From positions 1-22,972 of the IMG/VR virus record IMGVR_UViG_3300023180_004375: 22,972 nucleotides of DNA. One strand, 5' to 3'. A program made the translations under genes and the position numbers. Below the pieces are notes generated by a model, which was not told the DNA's origin, made no database searches, and saw only the letters and a program-made list of their open reading frames with translations. The DNA comes from a virus. Shown here one piece after another: positions 6,298 through 7,232 of this stretch; the stretch's first letter is position 1; each line of letters opens with the position of its first letter.

Positions 6298-6326
6298 TTG
6301 ACATTTATTAACAACTATTGTATAAT
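6298..6326 (+). promoter_or_regulatory. Early-type sigma70 promoter for bS21
   Basis: Perfect TTGACA (6298-6303), 17-base spacer, perfect TATAAT (6321-6326), embedded in AAACTATTGACATT as in the sister promoters. The expected start site, about 7 bases downstream, is near 6333, three bases before the ATG at 6336. Confidence 0.85.
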
Positions 6327-6335
6327 ATACACTAT

Positions 6336-6620
6336 ATGAGATATAATAATGAATTCCGCGGTCAGTCAATCGACTTAAGACCGAAACCAAGACATCCTAA
6401 GGATAAAAGACCTCCAACACCAATGCCATTTGATGTTGGTCTGAGAAAGTTTAGAAAAGCTGTTGAAAAAGCAGGTACTCTGAAAGAACTCAGAAAACGT
6501 GAGTTTTATGAAAAGCCAACCGCAAAAAGAAAGCGGTTAAAAAACGAGGCAATCAAAAGACATCAGAAAAGAATGGCAATGGAAATGAAACCTTACAGAG
6601 GCAAAAAAAGTTTTAAATAA
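6336..6620 (+). CDS. rpsU: Phage-encoded small-subunit ribosomal protein bS21
   Basis: 94 residues: an N-terminal extension of about 30 ([15 protein letters not shown]) followed by a full bS21 domain. Seen: [17 protein letters not shown], then [16 protein letters not shown] and a basic helical C-terminus ending in [11 protein letters not shown], matching bacterial S21 (FDVALRRFKRSCEKAG, [14 protein letters not shown]). bS21 sits on the 30S platform near the anti-Shine-Dalgarno sequence and helps initiation. Phage copies can replace or supplement the host protein. An upstream in-frame TTG at 6318 precedes the -10 box and would not be in the transcript, so I start at the ATG at 6336. The predicted mRNA begins only about 3 bases before this ATG, making the gene leaderless with no Shine-Dalgarno. 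Confidence 0.93.
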
Positions 6621-6623
6621 CTA

Positions 6624-6652
6624 TTGACATTTACTGTTAACTGTTATATAAT
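6624..6652 (+). promoter_or_regulatory. Early-type sigma70 promoter for the structured RNA
   Basis: Perfect TTGACA (6624-6629), 17-base spacer, perfect TATAAT (6647-6652), with the shared AACTATTGACATT context. The expected start is at about G6659, which is the first base of a 9-bp closing helix of the RNA downstream. Confidence 0.85.
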
Positions 6653-6658
6653 TGTTTT

Positions 6659-6790
6659 GTTCAGTGGGAATAAACCATGACGGCGAGATCGTAAGATTTA
6701 GGACCCACGACGGCTACCGAGTCCGGGAGCAACTTTTGAACTACCGATATACTGAGTAGGAATCTAACGCCAAAGGACCGACCACTGAAC
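6659..6790 (+). ncRNA. Candidate structured RNA or riboswitch-like leader, family unknown
   Basis: A 160-base stretch with no convincing ORF and more G and C than its surroundings follows a perfect promoter. A perfect 9-bp helix closes it (6659-6667 with 6782-6790). Inside I can pair 6682-6685 with 6768-6771, 6694-6698 with 6761-6765, 6701-6704 with 6721-6724 (plus CGG/CCG 6711-6713/6717-6719), and 6741-6744 with 6756-6759. These helices nest into one multibranched fold. An alternative 5-bp helix (6664-6668 with 6704-6708) would break the closing helix, a switch-like feature. The RNA ends about 10 bases before the ribosome site of the gene at 6813, so it may be a cis-regulator of that gene or a free small RNA. 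I compared it by eye with glutamine, cobalamin, TPP, glycine and c-di-GMP riboswitches and found no match. Confidence 0.65.
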
Positions 6791-6806
6791 CTCTTTATTA
6801 AAGGTT
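6788..6806 (+). promoter_or_regulatory. Weak hairpin masking the ribosome site of gene 6813
   Basis: AACCT (6788-6792) can pair with AGGTT (6802-6806), and CTTT (6793-6796) can alternatively pair with AAAG (6800-6803). Either would cover the ribosome site AAAGG (6800-6804) of the gene starting at 6813. The left arm shares bases 6788-6790 with the closing helix of the upstream RNA, so the two structures compete. The stems are short, and this is a proposal only. Confidence 0.3.
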
Positions 6807-6812
6807 TATATT

Positions 6813-7232
6813 ATGGGTTTAGTTCGCGGAATGACAACGCTTAACACTCGTAAGCGTAAAGTAAAATTCACAAAAGCAAAAATGGCTCAATTTGAGTTAG
6901 ATTGGCGCAAGCATAATAAGTGGGCTAAATCTAACGGCCTACACGATTTCTGTTACGATACACTTCAAGAGTATATAAATTACTGTCACGGTAAAAATAA
7001 AATTAATCGTAACGAATTTAAACCTCGTCCTGTAGAAAAAACTTATCGTAGAGAAACACCATATTATCCAAGTCTTGATTTATCAACCGTAAGTGCAGGA
7101 AAAGGTACCTACAAAGAATCCCCTAAATATACTGGTACATTAATTAAAGGAATTGCTACAATGCATAAGAGCAATGCAGTTCCTGTAATCAATCAAAAAG
7201 AAGCTGAAGAAATATCAAGGATGGCAAGATAA
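6813..7232 (+). CDS. Conserved T4-like phage protein, 139 aa, unknown function
   Basis: Starts at the ATG 8 bases after AAAGG (6800-6804). Basic N-terminus (TLNTRKRKVKFTKAKMAQF), a helical segment (ELDWRKHNKWAKSNGLHDF) and a C-terminal block YTGTLIKGIATMHKSNAVPV followed by a short helix, which I recall as conserved in marine T4-like phages without a known role. No catalytic motif seen. It is the first gene after the structured RNA and shares its promoter, so it may be regulated by that RNA. It shares one base with the next gene (TAATG). Confidence 0.82.
   Translation: MGLVRGMTTLNTRKRKVKFTKAKMAQFELDWRKHNKWAKSNGLHDFCYDTLQEYINYCHGKNKINRNEFKPRPVEKTYRRETPYYPSLDLSTVSAGKGTYKESPKYTGTLIKGIATMHKSNAVPVINQKEAEEISRMAR

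Follow-up and report, generated by a model that had tools for sequence, protein, structure and literature searches.

What is encoded between the ribosomal protein gene and the gene beginning at position 6813 in the IMG/VR virus record IMGVR_UViG_3300023180_004375, and upon what does it act? The record is 22,972 bases long and was analysed over its whole length, here called the window. A preliminary description of this DNA proposed that an unclassified structured RNA starts at a strong promoter in this interval and may control the gene that follows (gene 6813), and it left open whether the RNA is a riboswitch or a free regulatory RNA. Here, we present a comparative analysis of the locus (Table 1). 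We find that the existence of the RNA is borne out, in that it matches no Rfam family, undergoes compensatory base changes among its homologues and contains no conserved reading frame. Furthermore, the arrangement of its relatives bears directly on the question of whether gene 6813 is its target.

Table 1. Features of the RNA locus and the adjoining genes in the window
Feature	Position	Strand	Remarks
Promoter of the bS21 gene	6298..6326	+	12/12 match; mRNA predicted to be leaderless, with the ATG at 6336
Phage ribosomal protein bS21 gene, upstream of the RNA	6336..6620	+	PF01165, E 3e-16; phrog_21469, E 8e-21
σ70-type promoter of the RNA, TTGACA-N17-TATAAT	6624..6652	+	12/12 match
Whole conserved structured RNA	6659..6790	+	covariance model 159.9 bits, E 7e-42 (model built from a set that includes this RNA itself)
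P1 5' arm, beginning at the predicted transcription start	6659..6667	+	pairs with 6782-6790
P2 5' arm, GGCG	6682..6685	+	pairs with CGCC 6768-6771 in 29/29 sequences
Hairpin P2.1 (AGAUC-GUAA-GAUUU), GNRA-type tetraloop	6686..6699	+	pair 6690-6695 is GC, CG or UA among homologues
P3: CCC 6704-6706/GGG 6725-6727 and CGG 6711-6713/CCG 6717-6719	6704..6727	+	predicted from the RNAalifold consensus
P5 pseudoknot 5' arm, GUCC	6721..6724	+	both-sided changes at 3/4 pairs; 100% of cells paired
P4 hairpin: CUAC 6741-6744/GUAG 6756-6759, plus 6745-6746/6753-6754	6741..6759	+	covariation
P2 3' arm, CGCC	6768..6771	+	pairs with GGCG 6682-6685
P5 pseudoknot 3' arm, GGAC	6775..6778	+	pairs with GUCC 6721-6724
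P1 3' arm	6782..6790	+	pairs with 6659-6667
Pyrimidine/U-rich run, CUCUUUAUUA, weak in the window	6791..6800	+	directly past P1
Downstream gene (gene 6813), phrog_27048	6813..7232	+	protein search for relatives

A search with the protein encoded by gene 6813 led to 21 loci, most of which carry the RNA directly ahead of the gene. Scans for patterns taken from conserved parts of the RNA, together with profile searches, added further relatives and brought the number of distinct local contexts to 37, all on IMG/VR viral contigs. Conservation is stronger in the RNA than in the genes that flank it. Compared with the window, it is 93%, 98% and 94% identical at the loci L118, L145 and L015, where the bS21 gene is 72%, 75% and 64% identical and gene 6813 is 71%, 76% and 68% identical, respectively. 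Large contigs (89-156 kb) bear one copy of the RNA each. A candidate second copy within the window, the next-best match to the model (13 bits, E 0.05), lies within a predicted gene, in AT-rich sequence, and was judged to be a chance match. In other collections, BLAST against 50,697 phage records left the RNA itself unmatched, and for the wider region the matches in these records were confined to promoter-like AT-rich stretches of Staphylococcus phages. A pattern scan of GTDB genome contigs yielded only chance pattern matches, none of which scored as the RNA. The covariance model had no match in 385 whole genomes from a single bacterial class, taken around a locus titled Phaeobacter, a result to which we attach little weight, and it had no significant match in the whole genomes of Melnitz and HTVC008M, the only hit being at chance level (E 2.8).

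The folded RNA spans approximately 130-190 nt in these phages. It is approximately 132 nt long in the window, and sequence lengths of 128, 131, 132, 133 and 136 nt occur among its relatives. Because these lengths differ by non-multiples of three, the relatives share no reading frame. Additionally, the AUG at 6676 is missing in two of them (L339 and L349). A coding explanation was rejected on these two grounds, and no conserved open reading frame spans the region.

The fold was assessed in 29 distinct sequences aligned to the covariance model, with P1, P2, P2.1, P4 and P5 taken together as the structure. Across these helices, 99.2% of cells are paired. Compensatory changes affecting both sides of a pair were present at 13 pairs and in 100 cells, compared with 8.2 pairs and 28.9 cells in shuffles; none of 500 shuffles attained the observed counts, and the pairing signal collapsed when the partners were slid by 1-3 columns. 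The compensatory changes that the preliminary description had proposed to look for in homologues are therefore present. The perfect 9-bp closing helix that it had drawn, P1, is likewise upheld, with both-sided changes at five of its nine pairs and 100% of cells paired, the latter figure being obtained after realignment to the model, which leans towards the structure; in a MAFFT alignment (A1), where some rows had the P1 5' arm out of place, pairing reached 80% of P1 cells. P4 and P5 were 100% paired already in alignment A1, and P4 undergoes both-sided changes at all four of its outer pairs. The pseudoknot P5 lies outside the covariance model used for realignment, one of its pairs is found as all four Watson-Crick types (G-C, C-G, U-A and A-U), and in an earlier unguided alignment it gave the top mutual information among all column pairs. 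Given this covariation, there is good support for the long-range pairing P5 itself. P2 is invariant in all 29 sequences, which is consistent with pairing and carries no covariation signal, and because P2 never varies, the pseudoknot topology, in which P2 crosses P5, rests on an invariant helix. The pairs of P3 are nearly invariant and its loop varies in length.

The peripheral parts of the RNA are more plastic. In many members P2.1 is a short hairpin with a GUAA, GCAA or GAAA loop, and in others it is a longer hairpin whose sequence is nearly fixed. The window and L003 (4793-4978) have flanking genes that are 98-100% identical, yet the forms of their P2.1 and P4 hairpins differ, suggesting that peripheral RNA modules have been exchanged between phages. 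Approximately 57 alignment columns of the RNA are invariant, and the invariant segments that are mostly unpaired are GACGGCGAGA, GGACCCACGACGG, GGAGCAAC and ACGCCAA. Folded as a single sequence, the RNA of the window retains P1 in its minimum-energy structure, with a z of -1.40 relative to shuffled sequences; since this energy is unremarkable, the proof of structure is comparative. The comparison shows a conserved, structured, non-coding RNA whose fold comprises P1, P2.1, P4 and the pseudoknot.

Not all of the pairings drawn in the preliminary description survive this comparison. Of the inner helices, those corresponding to P2.1 and to the outer part of P4 are supported by the homologues, a hairpin at approximately 6713-6730 is not, and P5 had been overlooked. 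The hairpin at 6713-6730, which belongs to the minimum-energy structure, has no compensatory change and is paired in 87.9% of cells; P3 and P5 are preferred in its place, with RNAalifold pairing CCC with GGG and CGG with CCG. An alternative helix, 6664-6668 with 6704-6708, had been proposed to act as a switch. This GUGGG/CCCAC helix, which excludes both P1 and P3, can pair in 99.3% of cells and has zero both-sided changes, so that its role as a switch is not sustained, and the complementarity may just as well be kept invariant on other grounds.

The relatives of the RNA reside in three kinds of gene neighbourhood, and the RNA is usually located immediately behind a phage bS21 gene. In class A, to which the window belongs, the order is bS21 gene, promoter, RNA and gene 6813, and the bS21 gene adjoins the RNA in all five class A records searched. 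In class B (L346, L349, L364 and L366, and probably L166), the promoter and the RNA are followed by a gene, unrelated to gene 6813, for a membrane-protein-like product of approximately 70 aa; class B phages have other genes in common with class A at approximately 60% identity. Very short frames, for example AUG-AAU-UGA or AUG-ACU-UGA, are located between the RNA and the next gene in class B (L349 823-954 and L364 2181-2346, with the bases that follow). In class C (L296, L299, L307 and L324), the promoter is followed by a rearranged relative of the RNA, scoring 34.6 bits, and by a gene that we label ParB-like by eye only, its match to phrog_1583 being weak. In the class C RNA (L296 8922-9120; fold z = -4.2), the 5' arm of P1 has its pairing partner inside the RNA, and the 3' domain is closed by a stem of its own, 11 bp long. 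A search for a bS21 gene found none in the contigs of classes B and C, which include contigs of 100 kb and 108 kb and are possibly incomplete; bS21 was accordingly rejected as a universal companion of the RNA.

Class A itself is not uniform. At L015 and L022 there is no promoter between the bS21 gene and the RNA, and at L113 and L158 there is none ahead of the RNA and a 12/12 promoter lies instead between the RNA and gene 6813; in both cases the RNA is apparently co-transcribed with the bS21 gene. Relatives of gene 6813 at L017-L020 stand without such an RNA ahead of them. Thus, the RNA and gene 6813 are separable both ways, because the RNA precedes other genes and relatives of gene 6813 occur without it. 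In most class A members gene 6813 begins 22-27 nt past the RNA with no other promoter, an arrangement that is also a leader-like layout. Control of gene 6813, as the preliminary description had envisaged it, is nevertheless not supported as a conserved function, in view of the unrelated downstream genes, the promoter placement in L113 and L158 and the RNA-less relatives at L017-L020. A leader position before genes of common function, by which riboswitches are recognised, was not found among the three classes, whose downstream genes are unrelated. The RNA family is kept in three phage groups with differing gene neighbourhoods, under stronger selection than the nearby genes.

The ends of the RNA are marked by its promoter and by P1. 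The perfect promoter reported earlier was confirmed, and its predicted start is G6659, approximately 7 nt past the -10 hexamer. A 12/12 promoter with a 17-nt spacer precedes the RNA in nearly all homologues, and in classes A and B it is the RNA's own promoter, with its predicted start at the RNA 5' end, except in L015/L022, L113/L158 and L166. P1 is 8-11 bp long in class A, whereas most class B members have 16-18 bp (8 to 18 bp overall), and in both classes its outer end lies 4-9 nt past the -10 hexamer, that is, at the predicted start, in nearly all copies that have a promoter. A 2-nt spacing at L010 results from a mis-picked second TATAAT; L166 genuinely departs from the pattern, since its 5' tail is longer and its RNA begins further from the promoter. 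Perfect TTGACATTT...TATAAT promoters with 17-nt spacers occur four times in the 23 kb of the window (at 6298, 6624, 7710 and 14913), against a chance expectation of 0.01, and one of the four carries the RNA. In the promoter of the bS21 gene, the -10 hexamer ends 9 nt ahead of the ATG, and in those class A loci where the bS21 region is retained the distance from predicted start to ATG is similarly short (approximately 0-5 nt); the bS21 mRNA of class A is predicted from these distances to be leaderless. Elsewhere in the window, a PLP enzyme similar to 5-aminolevulinate synthase or 2-amino-3-ketobutyrate CoA ligase (PF00155) is encoded at 976-2184; its best phage-collection matches are approximately 34% identical.

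At the 3' end, the stretch right after P1 contains a mean of 5.7 T of 9 in classes A and B, and the next two stretches contain 3.4 and 4.0. This U-run is found in most members of both classes and is absent in L113/L158 and in class C. A classical local terminator was not found past P1 in the window, and P1, were it to serve as the terminator stem, would enclose approximately 115 nt, which is unusual. P1 varies in length, yet it always reaches the start and has U residues behind it, as is expected of a small-RNA gene whose product has its two ends paired. The interval from P1 to the AUG, folded in 19 distinct sequences, is less stable than shuffled sequence (mean z +0.97), and there is no conservation of the hairpin that had been thought to cover the gene 6813 ribosome site. 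The U-rich, unfolded stretch leaves this site open, and masking of the ribosome site is therefore not the mechanism.

These observations lead us to give roughly even odds (a probability of about 0.5) to the reading that the locus encodes a discrete small RNA, transcribed from a consensus promoter and acting in trans, with read-through into the next gene. The geometry of the locus strongly suggests that the σ70 promoter starts the RNA at the first base of P1, and, because transcription would begin there, the RNA 5' end would be sealed in a helix. It also strongly suggests that P1 plus the following U-run can end the transcript, and the product would be a discrete RNA of approximately 135-190 nt, with some transcripts continuing into the next gene. 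Within this RNA, GUCC in the P3 region pairs with GGAC just upstream of the P1 3' arm to form the pseudoknot. In trans, the RNA would most likely use its many invariant, mostly unpaired bases to bind a protein of the host or the phage, or else the translation machinery. Switching of gene 6813 is disfavoured relative to such trans action, and the free regulatory RNA offered as an option in the preliminary description is a better fit than a riboswitch for this gene. A more specific form of the trans-acting RNA, in which it makes up a ribonucleoprotein or ribosome-modifying pair with phage bS21 translated from a leaderless mRNA, binding bS21 or bS21-bearing ribosomes and redirecting host translation, is in our estimate distinctly unlikely.

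A cis-acting 5' leader, that is, a riboswitch or attenuator whose core senses a metabolite or protein and controls whichever gene follows by a choice between P1 plus the U-run (stop) and an open form with the GUGGG-CCCAC pairing, is possible, although we hold it doubtful. The RNA begins at the transcription start, lies a short distance from the next gene in most class A members and has a U-run behind P1; the GUGGG/CCCAC complementarity is almost always kept, the number of invariant columns is like that of ligand-binding RNAs, and a glutamine riboswitch is present in one phage with a similar ecology (PMC9004378). However, the three unrelated downstream genes have no evident shared pathway, and a leader would have to accommodate both the promoter that sits past the RNA in L113/L158 and the relatives of gene 6813 that do without the RNA. 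Furthermore, the alternative helix lacks covariation, and the ribosome site lacks a structured expression platform. It is unlikely, in turn, that the RNA is a partner or regulator of phage bS21, either as a mimic of the 16S region to which bS21 binds or as a 3'-UTR feedback element of the bS21 gene, a proposal that is a special case overlapping the preferred reading. The position of the RNA directly behind the bS21 gene in the class A records searched, the apparent co-transcription in L015/L022 and L113/L158 and the predicted leaderless bS21 mRNA are all consistent with it, as is one known case of bS21 binding a non-rRNA (PMC12054373). The lack of a bS21 gene in the class B and C contigs, incomplete as these may be, argues against it; the RNA has no conserved CCUCC-like element, and the Shine-Dalgarno-like GUAGG of P4 is not conserved, since the P4 arms vary by compensation.

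Two other mechanisms draw on the complexity of the fold. Promoter-proximal processive antitermination, in which the nascent RNA would bind RNA polymerase so that later terminators are passed, as with HK022 put or EAR elements, would account for an element that stands at the very start of transcripts ahead of different genes and is tolerated inside a transcript behind bS21. We consider it improbable in view of the single copy per genome, though other perfect promoters are present without the element, of the U-run right behind it, which suggests stopping rather than passing, and of the lack of an Rfam match to known elements. Hammerhead ribozymes occur in phages, and a pseudoknot, many invariant bases and peripheral hairpins with GNRA loops would suit a ribozyme that cleaves itself and thereby trims a phage transcript at its 5' or 3' end. 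This explanation seems to us very improbable: no ribozyme family was matched, and 5' trimming would be unnecessary because the RNA 5' end is already the predicted transcription start.

A search of Rfam 15 (4227 families, among them riboswitches, ribozymes, tmRNA, 6S and phage RNAs) gave no match at the gathering threshold over the window, and in 6600-6860 nothing appeared even when hits up to E = 5 were admitted, in agreement with the earlier finding by eye of no common riboswitch class; ARAGORN detected no tRNA or tmRNA, and a literature search found no description of this RNA. The family appears to be new relative to Rfam, and it is possibly identical with a published motif outside Rfam, such as Ocean-VI, which is listed without an Rfam number (PMC2864571). 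This newness concerns the RNA family only, and the mechanism may still turn out to be a familiar one. A conserved RNA of this sort points to an RNA-based step in the takeover of hosts by marine phages. The alignment, the covariance model and the promoter-to-U-run boundaries make it directly testable, and the predicted leaderless bS21 gene next door is a first concrete candidate partner. If it exists, the RNA-bS21 pair would be a trans-acting RNA class without known counterpart.

Several known systems resemble the phage RNA in part. The put RNAs of phage HK022 are structured RNAs that occupy the very beginning of an early phage transcript and so share with it a structured RNA at a transcript start; the phage RNA differs in being single copy, longer and pseudoknotted, with a U-run behind it, and no homology was detected. 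The L17 downstream element (RF01708) is a structured RNA that immediately follows a ribosomal protein gene (PMC2864571). The phage RNA also sits behind a ribosomal protein gene, but it has no Rfam match, usually has its own promoter and is found also away from any detected ribosomal protein gene. The manA and wcaG motifs are structured RNAs mainly from marine metagenomes and T4-like phages (PMC2864571), and are thus comparable as conserved structured RNAs of marine phages; unlike the phage RNA, which they do not match, they occur in potential 5' UTRs of metabolic genes. Phage Melnitz, a marine myophage, carries a glutamine riboswitch (the glnA motif) (PMC9004378). It offers a further instance of a structured RNA in a marine myophage and encodes a distant relative of gene 6813, whereas the glnA motif is a separate RNA and Melnitz contains no significant match to our model. 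Finally, the OLE RNA is a highly structured bacterial non-coding RNA of approximately 600 nt, to which bS21 binds through a Shine-Dalgarno/anti-Shine-Dalgarno-like helix (PMC12054373). The phage RNA is shorter, has no covariance match and lacks a conserved helix of this type; the likeness is that both are structured non-coding RNAs, and that bS21 is a partner of the OLE RNA and the phage RNA gene adjoins the gene for bS21.
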